DNA from: Kribbella kalugense
GTDB taxonomy: Bacteria > Actinomycetota > Actinomycetes > Propionibacteriales > Kribbellaceae
Assembly: GCF_004365875.1 (NCBI RefSeq)
Contig: NZ_SODF01000003.1
Span: 145,805-209,804 of the forward strand
Reading direction: 5' to 3'
DNA length: 64,000 nucleotides
The notes beneath the pieces are model-generated. The model was given only the letters and a program-made list of their open reading frames with translations, did not search any database and was not told where the DNA came from. The position numbers were made by a program, and so were the translations under genes. The first letter of the stretch is position 1. Each line of letters begins with the position of its first letter. Shown piece by piece: positions 4,875 to 36,713 of this stretch.

Positions 4875-5612
4875 ATGACCGACCTTCACGACAGCCTCCC
4901 CGACCTGATGCGGCGGGCCACCGAGGACCTCGAGCCGGCCACCCCCGAGCTGGTTGCCCGGGGCATCAGTCGCGGCAAGGTATTGCGCCGTCGCCGGACC
5001 GCCCTGGCCAGTCTGTCCGGCGCAGCCGCAGTACTAGCCACCGTCTGCATCATCGTCGGCAGCACACAGTTCCTCCAGCATGGCGCCGCGCCGACTGTCG
5101 CTCCCGCCGGCCCACCGACCTCGCGACCAGCGAAGAAACATCCCGTGACTCCCGCGGAGTCGTTGGCCACGCTCGCCCAGCTGCTGCCTTCCGGCCTGCG
5201 TGCGACGGAGCCGACCTCGTCCGGCGGCAACGGATCGAACATGAACGACGCCACGATCCGGCTCGACGACGGCAAGGGATCCTCACTGCTCACCCTGAGC
5301 GTCTCGACCGGCGACCCGATCACCGACTGCAACCCGTTCCCGCCAGGCTCCTGCACAGTCCAGCCCAACCGGTCCGTGTACGTCGTCCGCGACAACAAAC
5401 CGCTCTACACCGACCAGCCGAACCCCGGTGGGCTCAGGCAGACCGCAGTCGAGCTCTTCCATCCGGACGGCACCCAGATCAGCCTGACCAGCTACAACGC
5501 GCCGAAGGACAAAGGTGTCGAGCACAGCAGACCACGTCCGCTGTTGACGGTCGCGCAGCTGACGCAGATCGCCTACAGCAAGCAGTGGGCGTACCCACCG
5601 CGGGCCTCTTAG
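4875..5612 (+). CDS. membrane protein, candidate anti-sigma partner of the SigE-family factor
   Basis: 245 residues. The N-terminal 40 residues are cytoplasmic and end in a basic cluster (KVLRRRR). One membrane helix follows at about residues 44-64, then a Pro/Thr-rich linker and an exported domain with two cysteines (NPFPPGSC). This topology, and the position 16 bases after a sigma factor gene, fit the membrane proteins that accompany SigE-family sigma factors and often act as anti-sigma factors. No zinc-binding HxxxCxxC anti-sigma motif is present, so the role is inferred from context. The 3' end overlaps the convergent gntR gene by four bases. Confidence 0.6.
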   Translation: MTDLHDSLPDLMRRATEDLEPATPELVARGISRGKVLRRRRTALASLSGAAAVLATVCIIVGSTQFLQHGAAPTVAPAGPPTSRPAKKHPVTPAESLATLAQLLPSGLRATEPTSSGGNGSNMNDATIRLDDGKGSSLLTLSVSTGDPITDCNPFPPGSCTVQPNRSVYVVRDNKPLYTDQPNPGGLRQTAVELFHPDGTQISLTSYNAPKDKGVEHSRPRPLLTVAQLTQIAYSKQWAYPPRAS

Positions 5613-6352
5613 CGGTGAACCAGCGTGTGCTCGAAGGAGTAGCGGCTGGCTCGGTACAGGTGGGAGCCGTACTCGACCGGCTGACCATGGTCGTCGTACG
5701 TGATGCGGGTGGTCGCGAGAAGCGGTGAACCGGGCTCCTCCGACAGGAGCCGGGCCTGCTCGGCTGTGGCGGGGATGGCGGAGATCGTCTGGTGCGCCAC
5801 CTTCAGCCGAACGCCCTCGGCCCGGAGCAGCTGGTAGAGACCACGCTCGGCCAGTGTGGCCGGGTCGGTCTCCAGGAGGTCGGGCGGGAGCCAGTTCCGC
5901 AGCAGGGCGAGTGGCTCGCCGTCTGCCCGTCTGAGTCGCTCCAGCCTGAGCACCCGGTCGCCCTGCTCGCACTGCAAGGCTGTGGCGACTTCAGCGGTCG
6001 CGGGCGAGATCCCGAAGCGCAGCACCTCGGTTTCCGGCTTACGGTGCGCTGCGGTCAGGTCGTCGTACAGGCTGGTCAGCTCGAGGGAACGGCGTACCTG
6101 GCCGGAGTTCCCGACCACCTGGGTGCCGACGCCGCGTTTGCGGACCAGCAGGCCCTGGTCGACCAGGCGGGCGATCGCTTGCCGCACCGTTGGCCGGCTG
6201 AGCCCGTACGCCTCGGCCAGGTCGACCTCGTTGCTGAGCCGCGACCCGACCGGCAGTTCACCGCCCTGGATGGCCGCTTCGAGCTGCTGCGCCAACTGCA
6301 CGTGCAACGGCGTACGGCTGTTCCGATCGACCTGGACCTGGACGGTACTCAT
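5609..6352 (-). CDS. GntR family regulator with UTRA effector domain
   Basis: 247 residues. The winged helix occupies residues 10-75 (LSNEVDLAEAYGLSRPTVRQ), and the UTRA ligand domain about 90-245. It is a HutC-subfamily repressor that would respond to a small metabolite. ATG 6352 is preferred over the GTG two codons earlier because AGGA lies seven bases upstream. It lies just downstream of an AraC gene on the same strand. The protein is clearly paralogous to the inositol-cluster GntR at 27263: both share LTSLYDDL, R-N-W-L-P-P and a V-E-Y-G-x-H-x-Y-R-A C-terminus. The effector may therefore be a related polyol or sugar. Confidence 0.88.
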   Translation of the reverse strand: MSTVQVQVDRNSRTPLHVQLAQQLEAAIQGGELPVGSRLSNEVDLAEAYGLSRPTVRQAIARLVDQGLLVRKRGVGTQVVGNSGQVRRSLELTSLYDDLTAAHRKPETEVLRFGISPATAEVATALQCEQGDRVLRLERLRRADGEPLALLRNWLPPDLLETDPATLAERGLYQLLRAEGVRLKVAHQTISAIPATAEQARLLSEEPGSPLLATTRITYDDHGQPVEYGSHLYRASRYSFEHTLVHR

Positions 6353-8699: not shown

Positions 8700-8830
8700 G
8701 CAGGTTGCTCATGGCAGGGCGCACAGGCCCGGCCGATCACCCCGGCCCGGCCGTTCAGCACCTGGTCGACCGTCGTCTCACTCAGTCCGGCCTAGACCGC
8801 GATGTCGCGGACCCGATGCTCGCGGGCCAT
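8700..8830 (-). pseudogene. decayed LacI family regulator (N-terminal fragment)
   Basis: Read on the minus strand from ATG 8830, the sequence encodes MAREHRVRDIAV, a TAG stop, then AGLSETTVDQVLNGRAGV. This is the helix-turn-helix of a LacI regulator, whose usual form is V-R-x-I-A-x-x-A-G-L-S-x-x-T-V-x-x-V-L-N-G. The stop replaces one codon inside the DNA-binding helix, and after about 40 codons the similarity ends. The ligand-binding domain is absent. It is a relic between the FAD oxidoreductase and the dioxygenase gene, suggesting an earlier LacI regulator controlled this cluster. Confidence 0.75.
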
Positions 8831-8930
8831 CGGTGCCTCCCGGGAATGACGGGTTTTTGGTGGATTCAGGGGATTCCGAACCCTTCACCGAGCCACCAAT
8901 CTAGAACCATCGATCGAGAGGAGCCATCCC

Positions 8931-10067
8931 ATGTGGTTGAACCCCGCCGACGCCCGACTCGACGACTTGCTGACCGTGCTCAAGGACCAGACCGATCCCG
9001 CCGACTACCCGCACGCCGCGACCGTCGAACAGCAGGTCCCGGTGTACGACGCCGCCCGGATCCGGACCGCGGAGCCGCGGGCGGTCCAGACCGAGATCGT
9101 CCGGGCGTTCGCTAACGGCCCGGGGATCGTCGTCCTGAAAGGTGCCTTTAGCAACGACGTGGTCGACTCCACGACGGCCGAGTTCAACCTGCTGATCGAC
9201 GAGCAGCGCCGGTCCGGCGTCGTGGCCGGCGACCACTTCGCGAAGCCGGGCGCGAACGACCGGGTCTGGAACGCGCTCGAGAAGCTGGCGGTCAGTGCGC
9301 CTGAGGTATTCACGGCGTACTACGCGAACGACCTGCTCGCGTCGGTGTCGGCTGCCTGGCTCGGTCCGGCGTACCAGATCACCTCGCAGGTGAACGTGGT
9401 GAACCCGGGAGGCGAGGGGCAGACGGTGCACCGCGACTACCACCTGGGATTCCAGTCGGACGAGGTGGCAGCGCAGTACCCGGAGCATGTGCATCGGCTG
9501 TCGTCCGTGCTGACCTTGCAGGGCGCGGTCGCGCACTGTGACATGCCGGTGGAGTCGGGACCGACGCTGTATCTGCCGCACTCGCAGAAGTACGGCCTGG
9601 GATACCTGGCGTACCGGCGGCCCGAGTTCCAGGCGCATTTCGTCGACAACCACGTGCAACTGCCGCTGGAGAAGGGCGACGCGGTCTTCTTCAACCCGGC
9701 GCTGTTCCACGCTGCCGGGAGCAACCGTTCGGCGGACATCAAGCGGATGGCGAACCTGCTGCAGATCTCTTCCGCCTTCGGCCGGGCGATGGAGAGCATC
9801 GACCGGGCGCGGATGATCGAGGCGGTCTATCCCGAGTTGCTCGCCTTGACCGATCCGTTGGCGGCGGAGAACGTCATCGCGGCGACGGCCGAGGGCTACG
9901 CGTTTCCGACCAACCTCGATCGCGACCAGCCGATCGGCGGGCTCGCGCCGCAGTCCCAGGCCGACGTACTGCGCTCTGCCGTCACGGAGCGTTGGCACCC
10001 GGACAAGTTGCGGCAAGCACTCGACGACCACGCCGGCCGGCGTCAGACGCACGATAGAAACGCGTGA
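8931..10067 (+). CDS. phytanoyl-CoA dioxygenase (PhyH) family protein
   Basis: 378 residues. The iron-binding His-x-Asp is HRD at residues 167-169 (QTVHRDYHLGF). The distal His is likely H260 in FFNPALFHAAG, with a nearby Arg (R266 or R272) for 2-oxoglutarate. These mark a non-haem Fe(II)/2-oxoglutarate dioxygenase that hydroxylates a small molecule; the substrate is unknown. GAGAGGAG lies seven bases before the ATG. It follows the LacI relic and precedes a Gfo/Idh/MocA oxidoreductase on the same strand, with the FAD oxidoreductase further upstream, as in a carbohydrate catabolic cluster. Confidence 0.82.
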   Translation: MWLNPADARLDDLLTVLKDQTDPADYPHAATVEQQVPVYDAARIRTAEPRAVQTEIVRAFANGPGIVVLKGAFSNDVVDSTTAEFNLLIDEQRRSGVVAGDHFAKPGANDRVWNALEKLAVSAPEVFTAYYANDLLASVSAAWLGPAYQITSQVNVVNPGGEGQTVHRDYHLGFQSDEVAAQYPEHVHRLSSVLTLQGAVAHCDMPVESGPTLYLPHSQKYGLGYLAYRRPEFQAHFVDNHVQLPLEKGDAVFFNPALFHAAGSNRSADIKRMANLLQISSAFGRAMESIDRARMIEAVYPELLALTDPLAAENVIAATAEGYAFPTNLDRDQPIGGLAPQSQADVLRSAVTERWHPDKLRQALDDHAGRRQTHDRNA

Positions 10068-10238
10068 ACGTTCGGTGAACCACGTCCGGATCACGGGCAG
10101 GTGGTGTCGGATGGCGGTGATCGTCAGGCAGGATGGCGCGTTCGCAGTCCGGACGAAGGGCTACCCTTACCGGCGGAACACGCCCCTTGGACGAACCGCC
10201 GTGCGCCGCCCGTTCGGCCGACAATCGAAGGAGAAGGC

Positions 10239-32971: not shown

Positions 32972-33169
32972 TCATCGATTGTTGAGGCGCAGTGCCAGAG
33001 CCGGACATGCGAGGACTGCGCGGCGCGCATCCGGTAGCTCACCGGCGGTGATTTCGCGGCCGCGGAGGACCGGGAATCCCCACTCGTCGAGCAGGACGTC
33101 GTCGGGCAGCAGACCTGCGCAGAGGCCGTGACCGTCGCACCTGGTCCAGTCGATCTCGAGCTTGTTCAT
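32972..33169 (-). CDS. small single-cluster ferredoxin
   Basis: 65 residues. The iron-sulfur ligands are CDGHGLC (Cys11 and Cys17, with a non-Cys in between) and a distant CP (Cys55). This is the C-x2-H-x2-C pattern of [3Fe-4S] ferredoxins or of [4Fe-4S] types with a replaced ligand. It is a cytoplasmic electron carrier. The ATG overlaps the stop of the NuoF-like gene, so the two are translated together, and it probably passes electrons to or from that flavoprotein. Similar ferredoxins serve P450s, but none is encoded here. Confidence 0.85.
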   Translation of the reverse strand: MNKLEIDWTRCDGHGLCAGLLPDDVLLDEWGFPVLRGREITAGELPDARRAVLACPALALRLNNR

Positions 33170-34365
33170 CGGGCCCCTCCAAGGAGTCCCAGGACCGGTC
33201 GGCCGCACCCGCGACCTGACAGGTGCCGCTGTACGTCGTCGTCGAACACCTCGAGCGCCGACGTGAGGAATCTCGCAGTCCCGTCCGGGTGCGCGCAGGC
33301 TCCCCGCCCCGGGACCAGACCGAGGTGCCGATGGGCGTCGTGCCAGCCCTGCGGATCGCCGACCGTCAGCCTGGCGAAGTCGTCGACGAGGGCCGCCAGG
33401 CCGAAGACACACGGCCCGCACTGCCCGGCCGACTGACTGGACAGCCACTGGGCGACACGAGTGACCTCACCGAGCGGACAGGTGGCGGGCCCGAGCGCCA
33501 GGATAATGCCGGCCGACACCTCTGGCCGCTGGAGCGTCACTCCGTCCGTCTGCTCGAGCCAGCGACCGTGGTACCCACCGAGCAGGACAGGCCCCGGCTC
33601 AGCACCGGCGTACTGCAGGACGGTGTCCAGAGGTACGCCGGTCGGCGCCTCGATCACACCGGGCCACTGCACTGCTCCGTCGACCGTCAGTAGCTGTGTG
33701 CCGGGCTCACTGATCAGTCCGGTGCTGCTGAACCCGCGGGATCCGAGCCTCGCGAGTACTGCGAGCTGCGCGAACGTCTCCACGTTCGAAAGGAACGTCG
33801 GCCGCCGGTGGTACCCCTTCCGCGTCGGCAGCACCCTCCGACCGGGTGGTACGGCGAGACCGCCCTCCAGCGCGCTCAGTACGGCACGGGCCTCCCCCGC
33901 GACGAACCGACCTGGAGTCTCACGAACCTCGACCGCCAGCCCGTCGTCACGCTCCATCAGCGCTTCCCGGACCGACAGAGCAGCCGCCGGGTCGTGTACG
34001 GCGATCAGCACGTGAGGCGCACCCAGTGCGTGCGCCAGGCCGACCGCACCATCCAGAACGAGATGTGGCGACTGGGTGAGGAGCAGGCGGTCCTTCCGGC
34101 TGACCGGCTCACTCTCGGAGCCGTTGACCACTACGGCCTCCACACCGCGAGCCGGCAGGTCCTGCAGCTTCAGTGCGACCGGGAAGGCCGCCCCGCCACG
34201 TCCTCTGAGTCCTACTGCTTCAGACAGGTTGGTGTAGTCCGCACGGGTCAGCTGCGGCTGATCTCCGTGAGTCAAGAGGTGGCGCTGGAGGTCCAGGCGG
34301 CCCTGGTCGAGTCCGGCGAGGACTCTGGCCTCACCGATGACCCTGATCTCTTCGACAGTAATCAC
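33166..34365 (-). CDS. NuoF-like NADH-binding flavoprotein
   Basis: 399 residues related to the 51-kDa subunit of complex I. The FMN/NADH glycine loop is GLRGRGGAAFPVALKLQ, an SLBB-like domain follows, and the C-terminal cluster site is SAGQCGPCVFGL plus GRGACAHPDG. Complex I NuoF has C-x2-C-x2-C with a fourth Cys further on; here the first is Ala, so three remain. The protein lacks NuoE and NuoG partners, so it is not part of complex I. It probably transfers electrons between NADH, the ferredoxin and the membrane haem protein. GTG 34365 overlaps the upstream stop (GTGA). Confidence 0.85.
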   Translation of the reverse strand: MITVEEIRVIGEARVLAGLDQGRLDLQRHLLTHGDQPQLTRADYTNLSEAVGLRGRGGAAFPVALKLQDLPARGVEAVVVNGSESEPVSRKDRLLLTQSPHLVLDGAVGLAHALGAPHVLIAVHDPAAALSVREALMERDDGLAVEVRETPGRFVAGEARAVLSALEGGLAVPPGRRVLPTRKGYHRRPTFLSNVETFAQLAVLARLGSRGFSSTGLISEPGTQLLTVDGAVQWPGVIEAPTGVPLDTVLQYAGAEPGPVLLGGYHGRWLEQTDGVTLQRPEVSAGIILALGPATCPLGEVTRVAQWLSSQSAGQCGPCVFGLAALVDDFARLTVGDPQGWHDAHRHLGLVPGRGACAHPDGTARFLTSALEVFDDDVQRHLSGRGCGRPVLGLLGGAR

Positions 34366-34913
34366 TGAGCCCTCCAGGCACGGGTGAGTTTCGGGGTCGC
34401 ATTGAGGCGATACGCGGCCGCAGTGGCGACTGCGGCCAGACAGCCGATGGTGATGCCGAGCATCCACGGCGTACTGCGATCAGTGCCGGCGAGCAGCGCA
34501 TGCCCGATGGACAGCAGCCAGCCGACCGACGCGGCGATGTGGAGCTTGCGCCAGTACTTCGTGAAGGAGGCAGACGCGGCCAACCGACCACGGGACGCTC
34601 CGACGAGGGACGCCAGTACCAGGCCGTAGAAGGCCAGGACACCGACAGCCACCGCGAACGGTCGGTAGCCAGAGCCGAACGGCCAGACCAGAACGGCCGG
34701 ACTGATGTTCACGTAGGCGTCGGTGATCACTGCGACCACGTGGGTTGCCAAGAGAACCAGCCCGGTCACTGCGGCCGAGCGGTGCACGTACTGCAGCCAG
34801 AACCGTCGCTCTGGTCGACGCAGGCCAGGCATGACCATGCCCAGCGCGGCCGACAGCGTGAACATGATCATCGCGACCACGCCGGCTGCACGGGCGAGGT
34901 ACCACAGCGTCAT
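34362..34913 (-). CDS. two-haem ferric reductase-like membrane protein
   Basis: 183 residues with about five or six membrane helices. Histidine pairs His44/His58 (YVHRSAAVTGLVLLATH) and His125/His138 (KLHIAASVGWLLSIGH) lie 14 and 13 residues apart in two helices, the arrangement that holds two b haems in ferric reductase-like domains. It would carry electrons across the membrane. There is no C-terminal FAD/NAD domain, so the electrons must come from or go to another protein, most likely the NuoF-like protein inside and a flavinylated partner outside. The gene overlaps both neighbours. Confidence 0.85.
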   Translation of the reverse strand: MTLWYLARAAGVVAMIMFTLSAALGMVMPGLRRPERRFWLQYVHRSAAVTGLVLLATHVVAVITDAYVNISPAVLVWPFGSGYRPFAVAVGVLAFYGLVLASLVGASRGRLAASASFTKYWRKLHIAASVGWLLSIGHALLAGTDRSTPWMLGITIGCLAAVATAAAYRLNATPKLTRAWRAQ

Positions 34914-35821
34914 CAGGCAGCCCTGCTCGCTGCGGGCCAGCCCGACAACTCGGTGATGTCGCCGTCGGCGCCGATCAACCGGGCCGGGTGACTGGCCAGC
35001 TTCAGTCGACCCAGTGCCGCCTCGCCAGTGGCGACGAGTGCAGTGCTGAACGTATTCGCCCGTACGGCGGTTGGCGCCCAGACGGACGCGGTCCGGTACG
35101 GGCCTGCGGCCGGTAGTCCGGTGCGTGGGTCGATGACGTGGTGGCCGTAGCCGGTCGGGGTCTGCCAACGCCGTACCGTCCGGGTCGACGTGGTCAGGCC
35201 GCCGTGGGCCAGCGTGACGAGGACGCCCTGGTCACCGGCGCGCTCGGCGACGGTGACGACCCACGGCTTCTTCGGCGTACCCGCTGCCCGCAGATCGCCG
35301 CCGATCTCGACCAGGACGGCACAGCCGTAGCGCTTGCTGATCACGTTGGCGGCCCGGTCCGCGGTCCAGGCCTTGGCGGTGGCACCTAGGTCGAGGGCGC
35401 AGTCCGTGGGTACGCCGAGCAGCGCGAGCTTCCGGTTGAGGCGGACCTCCTGCCAGCCCGCGATCGGCCCCGGTTCGTCGGGAGGTTGCGGGAAGCGGCG
35501 TCGTACCGCCTCGATGTCGGCGTCGTACCCGGCCGCGATCACAGCTGGGCCGACGGTCGGGTCGACCGCGCCGCCACTCATCTGTGCTGCGACCAGACTG
35601 ACGTCGACCAGGTCGACGAGCAGGCGCGACACCGGTACGAGCGCACCGGCCCGGCTGTTCACGACCGACAGCTCCGAGTCCGGGCGGAACCGACTCGCCG
35701 CCTTGTCGACGCGGTCCATCAGAGCCTTGAGCTCACCGCACGCCGCACCCAGTACGGCGGGGTCGTCGACGGTCAGGCGGACCGTGCAACTCCACGCGGT
35801 CCAGGTCCGGGAGGCGGTCAT
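34913..35821 (-). CDS. apbE: FAD:protein FMN transferase (ApbE family)
   Basis: 302 residues. ApbE attaches FMN from FAD to a Thr or Ser of an exported target protein. Family blocks are AVDPTVGPAVIAAG, DLGATAKAWTADRA, VLVEIGGDLRAAG and GYGHHVIDPRTGLPA with the metal-binding Asp/Thr. No clear signal peptide is seen, so the enzyme may act inside, or be exported by a route not visible here. The ATG overlaps the stop of the Ser-rich gene (ATGA), and the stop overlaps the two-haem gene, which ties flavin attachment to this electron chain. Confidence 0.92.
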   Translation of the reverse strand: MTASRTWTAWSCTVRLTVDDPAVLGAACGELKALMDRVDKAASRFRPDSELSVVNSRAGALVPVSRLLVDLVDVSLVAAQMSGGAVDPTVGPAVIAAGYDADIEAVRRRFPQPPDEPGPIAGWQEVRLNRKLALLGVPTDCALDLGATAKAWTADRAANVISKRYGCAVLVEIGGDLRAAGTPKKPWVVTVAERAGDQGVLVTLAHGGLTTSTRTVRRWQTPTGYGHHVIDPRTGLPAAGPYRTASVWAPTAVRANTFSTALVATGEAALGRLKLASHPARLIGADGDITELSGWPAASRAA

Positions 35822-36093
35822 GAGCCGTTGCTCCCACCTTGCGAGGTGGAGCCCGAGCTGGACGAGCCCAGCCCGCTCGAGCTGTCGTCCGAGCTGGAAC
35901 CGCTGGAGCTGGAGTTCGAGTCGTCGGAGCTGCTCGAGGTTGCCGTCGTACCGGAGCTGCTGGAGTGCTTCGACGAGACGACCGCGACCGAGATCCCGGT
36001 TGCCCCGACCCCGAGGACGGCGGTGGCTATGGCTGCCGCGGACGCCCGGTGCAACCAGCGTCGGCGGGTGGAAGCTGCATCTGAGGTGACCAT
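35818..36093 (-). CDS. Ser-rich membrane-anchored protein, possible flavinylation target
   Basis: 91 residues. A basic N-terminus and a helix at about residues 18-40 anchor the protein; the rest is exported and almost all Ser, Gly, Asp and Thr. SGTTATS at residues 47-53 resembles the S-G-A-T-x-T-S site that ApbE flavinylates in FMN-binding domains, but no folded FMN_bind domain is present. As first gene of the operon and coupled to apbE, it may be a minimal flavin carrier. It could instead be only a linker-like surface protein; the motif match is partial and the region is Ser/Thr-rich. Confidence 0.6.
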   Translation of the reverse strand: MVTSDAASTRRRWLHRASAAAIATAVLGVGATGISVAVVSSKHSSSSGTTATSSSSDDSNSSSSGSSSDDSSSGLGSSSSGSTSQGGSNGS

Positions 36094-36184: not shown

Positions 36185-36676
36185 TCAGGATGTACCGCGA
36201 ACCTCAGGCGGGCAGTCGGTGTCGCAGTGCTTGCCGATGGTCGCGACGATCTCGTCCGAGACCTCGCCGAGCACCGCCAGCCGCTCCGGACCGAACACGT
36301 CCACGAAGAACTCCCGGACCCGGGCCGCATGCGCCGGCGCACATTCCTTGATCGCGGCCAGGCCCTGCTCAGTGATGGCGATCTCCGGGTAGCGGGACTC
36401 GCAGGCCTCCTTGCGGATCAAGCCGCGCTTCTCCATCCGGGTCAGGTGGTGCGACAGCCGGCTCTTCTCCCACTGGGTCGACCGGCTCAGCTCGAACGCC
36501 CGCATCCGGCCGGACTCCGACTCGGACAGGTTGACCAGGATCTCGAAGTCCGACTTGGACAGGCCGAACTCTCGCTGGAGGTGGCGCTCGAGGTGCGTCT
36601 CCAGCGTCCGGTTCATCAGCAGATAGCTCCGCCACGCCTTCTGCTCGTCGTCGTCGAGCCACGGTTCCTTGGTCAC
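36185..36676 (-). CDS. MarR family transcriptional regulator
   Basis: 163 residues. The winged helix is at about residues 35-110 (SKSDFEILVNLSESESGRMR, STQWEKSRLSHHLTRMEKRG). GTG 36676 gives the usual VTKEPWLDDDEQKAWRSYL start; TAGGAT lies seven bases before it, so the mRNA may be leaderless. ATG 36685 and 36706 are alternatives, but 36706 lies inside an operator. It is divergent from the NmrA-like gene and should repress both through the two GTTGA-N4-TCAAC sites. The signal is unknown; the NmrA target suggests redox or electrophile stress. Confidence 0.88.
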   Translation of the reverse strand: MTKEPWLDDDEQKAWRSYLLMNRTLETHLERHLQREFGLSKSDFEILVNLSESESGRMRAFELSRSTQWEKSRLSHHLTRMEKRGLIRKEACESRYPEIAITEQGLAAIKECAPAHAARVREFFVDVFGPERLAVLGEVSDEIVATIGKHCDTDCPPEVRGTS

Positions 36677-36697
36677 GAACCCCATCCTACCCGCCTG

Positions 36698-36713
36698 GGT
36701 TGACACATCAACC
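36698..36713. promoter_or_regulatory. MarR operator 1
   Basis: GGTTGACACATCAACC is an inverted repeat (GGTTGA/TCAACC around CACA). It covers the -35 of the rightward promoter and lies just upstream of the marR start. An almost identical copy is centred 36 bp away. Confidence 0.75.

Follow-up and report, generated by a model that had tools for sequence, protein, structure and literature searches.

We describe here a five-gene operon from Kribbella kalugense that encodes an ApbE-family protein together with a small bitopic membrane protein of 91 residues, a two-haem membrane protein, a NuoF-like protein and a ferredoxin. The operon lies on the reverse strand at positions 32972-36093 of the window analysed, a stretch of 64,000 nucleotides (G000:C3:145805-209804) from a genome of 8.3 Mb. 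Judged from its sequence, we think it somewhat better than an even chance that the operon forms a transmembrane chain oxidising reduced nicotinamide adenine dinucleotide (NADH), and that the small protein is a minimal carrier with flavin mononucleotide (FMN) on its C-terminal serine, attached by the operon's own variant of ApbE. Electrons would pass from NADH to the FMN and iron-sulfur centres of the NuoF-like protein, then through the three-cysteine ferredoxin and the two-haem, FRD-type membrane protein to a covalent flavin on the outside, and from there to an outside acceptor. The outside carrier would consist of one helix and a flexible tail with the flavin at its tip. The ApbE variant would attach FMN to Ser91, the last residue of QGGSNGS-COOH; the reaction would probably take place in the cytoplasm, ahead of the passage of the short tail through the membrane.

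One observation that points to a terminal acceptor is the conservation of the C-terminus of the small protein. The tails vary freely and can be rich in Ser, Pro, Lys or His, but the chain end is fixed as [D/Q/H]-[A/G]-x-[S/T]-x-[A/G/S]-Ser-COOH. In 38 sequences from outside Kribbella the last residue is always Ser (38/38), with Ser or Thr at position -4 and Ala, Gly or Ser at position -2 in 37 each, the C-termini being taken from open reading frames that a script selected with a hydrophobicity threshold or, for some, that were identified by eye, in genomes chosen non-randomly. The full [ST]x[AGS]S end is present in 36/38 of these sequences compared to 8.0% of internal tail windows, and the Kribbella small proteins add 33/33. 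Position -7 is enriched in Asp, Gln and His (8, 8 and 9 of the 38 sequences; background frequencies 5.8, 6.8 and 1.4%, respectively). The Asp, the Ser or Thr, the small residue and the final Ser are spaced as in the ApbE target D-x-x-[S/T]-G-A-[S/T]. QGGSNGS in the window protein is a degenerate form of this target and relatives end in DAGSNAS or RSGAS, while related operons in which the ApbE carries Glu at a metal-binding position end in the target itself, as DATTGAS (L253, an exact match), DTSTGASG (L255) and HTKTGAS (L257), with SGGS or TGGS occurring widely in the phylum. A seven-residue tag is enough for flavinylation by ApbE, most effectively when placed at a chain end (PMC12052999), and in FMN_red proteins the flavin sits on an unstructured extension of the C-terminus (PMC10979944).

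The small gene adjoins nearly every operon apbE and is lost with it. Every Propionibacteriales locus read has it immediately upstream of apbE; 30 loci were read, and a script recovered the gene in 46/48, a set in which some loci repeat others, with the remaining two (L093 and L103) recovered by eye. Five Kribbella genomes without the operon's apbE and membrane gene also lack the small gene, G009 giving a stray weak match only, and thus the paired loss that the initial annotation proposed to look for is seen, the two genes being present or absent together. Conservation of the small protein extends far outside Kribbella. A membrane-NuoF-ferredoxin operon without apbE occurs in Streptomyces and others, and in the one read closely (L186) no small gene was found. 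A substrate-enzyme pair fits this pattern better than two unrelated genes would, which favours FMN on the terminal serine, and supports the earlier proposal that the 91-residue protein is the operon's only candidate for a flavin carrier. The charge on the N-terminal side of the transmembrane helix is more positive than that on the C-terminal side in 71/71 small proteins, so the tail is predicted to lie outside.

No conventional flavin target was found for this ApbE in the operon. Pfam searches of the operon agree with the initial annotation that the NADH chain encodes no FMN_bind protein, and the 91-residue protein gave no match to PF04205 (FMN_bind). The ApbE-membrane-NuoF-ferredoxin core recurs in nearly all of 40 order-level loci taken around the membrane gene, and it is found across Actinomycetota; in the loci scanned there was neither a separate FMN_bind gene nor an operon protein with a convincing [ST]GA[ST]x[ST] site. 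Among 38 Kribbella genomes, FMN_bind is present in 18 and a match to the operon ApbE in 34, of which 33 are clear orthologues. Whole-genome Pfam searches detected no FMN_bind in the single-contig, operon-bearing Kribbella genomes G010, G031 and G033, and a search of seven genomes for DUF2271 and DUF3570 found neither in any of them. For FMN_bind the whole-genome searches are the sound ones; its absence from the named Streptomyces loci comes from a profile of only three seeds and carries little weight. The operon ApbE is an orphan in the sense of Meheust et al. (2021, PMC8238504).

Sequence and model place the operon ApbE in its family by fold, a placement that does not establish FMN transferase activity. 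It matches PF02424 (5.5e-45), and its AlphaFold2 model, with a predicted local distance difference test score of 94.8, is closest to 1vrm (E 6.1e-22), with further matches to Ftp and FmnB structures. FmnB and the ApbE FAD (flavin adenine dinucleotide):protein FMN transferases have this fold and most of the active-site residues in common with the operon ApbE, in which K150, S212, R217, H228 and T260 are kept. The difference lies in the catalytic Asp-Ser-His set (Asp301, Ser257 and His273 in FmnB), of which Ser and His are present whereas Asp is replaced by Asn in all sequences of this kind, here termed N-type, and by Glu in related operons. Asp301 of FmnB is a ligand of both Mg ions, and substitution of metal-binding residues with Ala greatly reduces or abolishes activity (PMC8906456). 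The initial annotation had treated the protein as an ordinary transferase; given an invariant Asp-to-Asn exchange at a metal-binding catalytic position, activity cannot be assumed. We found Asn in about 70 operon ApbEs and then in 30/30 of a later class-wide set, three of which repeat earlier loci. On a tree built without that column the N-type sequences, 103/103 with Asn, form one clade (support 0.785), which is monophyletic and has a single origin. On this tree the Glu-type ApbEs are not set off from the Asp type as one clade, and control ApbEs linked to FMN_bind carry Asp in 22/22.

Several features sit uneasily with FMN on Ser91. The motif is degenerate, since the Gly at -3 is usually Asn, His or Ser, the Ala at -2 is often Gly and only a minority have Asp at -7. 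Nor is there a flavin-binding fold in the small protein to hold the isoalloxazine. At the N-type loci L228, L237, L241 and L243 we recognised no small gene, and at L290 and L294, which have N-type ApbEs and lie outside the class, the small-protein ends (SGGTGD and SGSTVCS) do not fit; these two may have branched off early in the N clade, or the genes may have been misassigned. Within Kribbella the C-terminal DNA probably doubles in part as the ribosome-binding site of apbE. The main doubt is the Asn at the position of the Mg-binding Asp, which makes transferase activity doubtful throughout the N-type clade and gives real weight to a different role for the enzyme. The N-type ApbE may no longer be a transferase and instead keep FAD as a cytoplasmic electron-transfer or scaffold subunit, with the small-protein C-terminus docking unmodified in its substrate tunnel. 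An exchange that is invariant in a monophyletic clade while the other active-site residues are kept would fit such a protein, as would the lack of an apparent signal peptide and of an FMN_bind target. However, related operons keep an acidic Glu together with C-termini that match the canonical target, and a tail with its C-terminus outside could not remain docked to a cytoplasmic ApbE after export. Actinobacterial ApbEs that adjoin FMN_bind genes likewise lack signal peptides, so a cytoplasmic ApbE is normal there, and we dropped this location as an objection to flavinylation. Overall we consider docking unlikely, although it is the alternative we take most seriously.

The remaining alternatives concern where the flavin would go and why the chain end is conserved. 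It is improbable that the flavinylation target of the operon ApbE is the product of another locus, with a different role for the small protein: FMN_bind genes do lie elsewhere in about half of the Kribbella genomes, the window's own included, but in that genome they are near a second, Asp-type ApbE, and we rejected FMN_bind, DUF2271 and DUF3570 proteins as distant targets on their absence from the complete operon-bearing genomes and the seven genomes tested, respectively. We give an equally low probability to conservation of the C-terminus for an unrelated reason, such as translational coupling, a sorting signal or glycosylation of a Ser/Thr-rich stalk. The genes do overlap, the last codons in Kribbella contain a Shine-Dalgarno-like GGGAG, and many tails are rich in Ser and Thr. 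Yet the last Ser is encoded by TCA, TCG, TCC and, in L227 and L230, AGC, and seven loci lack the overlap; this codon variety, along with the non-overlapping loci, indicates selection on the protein. The same end is also conserved in Pro-, Lys- or His-rich tails and is tightly tied to apbE. A by-product of the ATGA overlap or the ribosome-binding site was therefore rejected as a full explanation, although it may add to the conservation within Kribbella. Finally, the initial annotation had placed the flavin on the SGTTATS of the tail, which would make Thr50 the acceptor. The string is present at residues 47-53 and resembles SGATxTS, and short tags can serve as ApbE substrates (PMC12052999). Counting [ST]Gx[ST]x[ST] sites against shuffled tails, we found them in 23/33 Kribbella tails compared to 24.0 expected and in 19/38 from other genera compared to 17.7 expected, while strict [ST]GA[ST] inside the tails is, if anything, depleted. 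Only 4/33 Kribbella proteins have the exact string, and the form is missing from 10/33 Kribbella orthologues and from half (19/38) of the others, an outcome that the initial annotation had itself named as refuting its site. Being unconserved and at chance frequency, SGTTATS was rejected as the site, and modification of Thr50 is highly improbable.

The ends of the small proteins differ with the type of ApbE. Alongside N-type ApbEs 100/101 end in Ser, whereas alongside Glu-type ApbEs 14/34 carry one to seven residues past the motif (Fisher p 2.5e-8 for the full pattern, in sequences that are related, with one origin of N and three N-type entries that repeat loci). As the N clade has a single origin, the correlation between a terminal Ser and the N-type enzyme represents one event and not many. 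The contrast suggests that the terminal carboxylate may be of importance for the N-type enzyme. A more speculative extension, which we think unlikely, is that the N-type ApbE, without its Mg-binding Asp, acts only on C-terminal-Ser acceptors, with the terminal carboxylate of the substrate replacing the Asp in a substrate-assisted flavinylation.

The other three components are consistent with an NADH-driven chain. The identities proposed earlier for the ferredoxin, the NuoF-like protein and ApbE hold, with Pfam matches to Fer4_15 (7.7e-11), Complex1_51K (PF01512, 2.4e-32) and ApbE (5.5e-45), and the overlaps of stop and start codons can be read at 4/4 junctions, as ATGA between the small gene and apbE, TGATG between apbE and the membrane gene, GTGA between the membrane gene and nuoF and ATGA between nuoF and the ferredoxin gene. 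The membrane protein is modelled with five long helices, and H44, H58, H125 and H138, two His pairs on the transmembrane helices, are invariant in 21 diverse homologues. This agrees with its designation as a two-haem protein, though there was no confident match to Pfam: PF01794 was unmatched and PF01292 alone appeared at 4e-4, below the cut-off. The closest folds to the model are STEAP1/2, NOX5 and cytochrome b561, with weak E-values. A TGAT in the membrane protein of L072 was dropped as a flavinylation site because the motif is not conserved. The NuoF-like protein keeps the FMN/NADH domain with its conserved motifs, but the four-Cys set of the N3 4Fe-4S cluster is incomplete, the first Cys being Ala and three Cys remaining (SAGQCGPC). 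A conserved His lies two residues past the last cluster Cys in the operon NuoF-like proteins (GACxHPDG), and is possibly a substitute ligand to the cluster. The ferredoxin has three Cys.

We found no description of this operon arrangement in a literature search that left out most subscription papers. The nearest known systems are MsrQ-like flavinylation clusters with a NuoF-like protein, of which Meheust et al. (PMC8238504) give 31 with PF10589, mostly in Actinobacteria. As described there, these clusters also place apbE beside a two-haem membrane protein of the FRD superfamily and a NuoF-like NADH donor, but typically include a gene for an FMN-binding domain; the Kribbella operon has the small tail protein instead, and its membrane protein did not match PF01794. 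The DUF2271, DUF3570, FMN_red and Flavodoxin_4 substrates (PMC8238504, PMC10979944) carry an [S/T]GA[S/T]-like motif in a gene adjoining apbE, as here. In FMN_red the motif is part of an unstructured extension of the C-terminus, much like the terminal motif of the small protein. In contrast, these substrates are folded or larger, whereas the small protein amounts to a transmembrane helix and a tail whose last residues form the motif. The Streptomyces operon (for example L186) has homologous membrane, NuoF and ferredoxin parts, but no apbE and no small protein, and its NuoF and ferredoxin are fused. At L186 (4706-7590) and similar Streptomyces loci the membrane protein has an apparently disordered C-terminal extension of about 240 residues, and the operon adjoins a leucyl-tRNA synthetase gene. 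Meheust et al. report apbE without an identified substrate in 4% of genomes. The likeness of its conserved end to the ApbE target suggests that the small tail protein is a new and very small kind of flavin carrier. If so, it would offer a specific and widespread actinobacterial answer to the substrate-less apbE, in which a helix, a flexible tail and a terminal motif carry the flavin without a flavin-binding fold. It would also pair an ApbE clade of changed catalytic residue with a substrate in which the acceptor is the final residue, making the mechanism of the enzyme directly testable.

Table 1. Positions in the window of the operon genes, the sites discussed and the neighbouring regulator.
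Feature	Position	Strand	Remarks
Small bitopic protein, 91 residues	35818..36093	-	Arg-rich N-terminus, one transmembrane helix (~residues 21-39), Ser-rich tail, conserved C-terminus
QGGSNGS, C-terminal heptapeptide, residues 85-91	35821..35841	-	Proposed flavinylation / ApbE-recognition site; putative acceptor Ser91; conserved [DQH][AG]x[ST]x[AGS]S-COOH
SGTTATS, residues 47-53	35935..35955	-	Site proposed earlier; unconserved, chance level
ApbE-family protein, N-type, 302 residues	34913..35821	-	No signal peptide apparent; PF02424; best model match 1vrm, with FMN transferases
Asn256 codon	35054..35056	-	Position of Mg-binding catalytic Asp (FmnB Asp301 / V. cholerae Asp285); Asn invariant in clade
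Five-helix two-haem membrane protein, FRD/STEAP-like	34362..34913	-	Four invariant His; model and fold matches; weak profile match to 8qt6
NuoF-like NADH:FMN protein	33166..34365	-	First Cys of 4Fe-4S motif replaced (SAGQCGPC ... GACAHPDG)
Three-Cys ferredoxin	32972..33169	-	Probably 3Fe-4S; Fer4_15
MarR-type regulator	36185..36706	-	Directly upstream of operon; possibly its regulator

A longer protein occupies the position of the small gene at L228, perhaps with a DUF5666-type domain, as judged by eye, followed by a tail ending in KTTTT. Elsewhere in the window's genome, L006 (G000:C1:854000-869000, about 5049-5900 and 8803-10163) is a conventional flavinylation cluster in addition to the unusual operon, with the second, Asp-type ApbE and, some 4 kb from it, FMN_bind proteins that carry DTVSGASFTS and DTVSGATFTS. 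A MarR-type gene is also found near the operon in L068, L136, L137 and L138, and was not detected there in the other genera checked. At L068 (G017:C1:5921000-5930500), also a Kribbella, an in-frame TAG interrupts the membrane gene and the nuoF-like gene is broken into parts in different frames, either through decay or through sequencing error; the small gene and apbE show no apparent damage.

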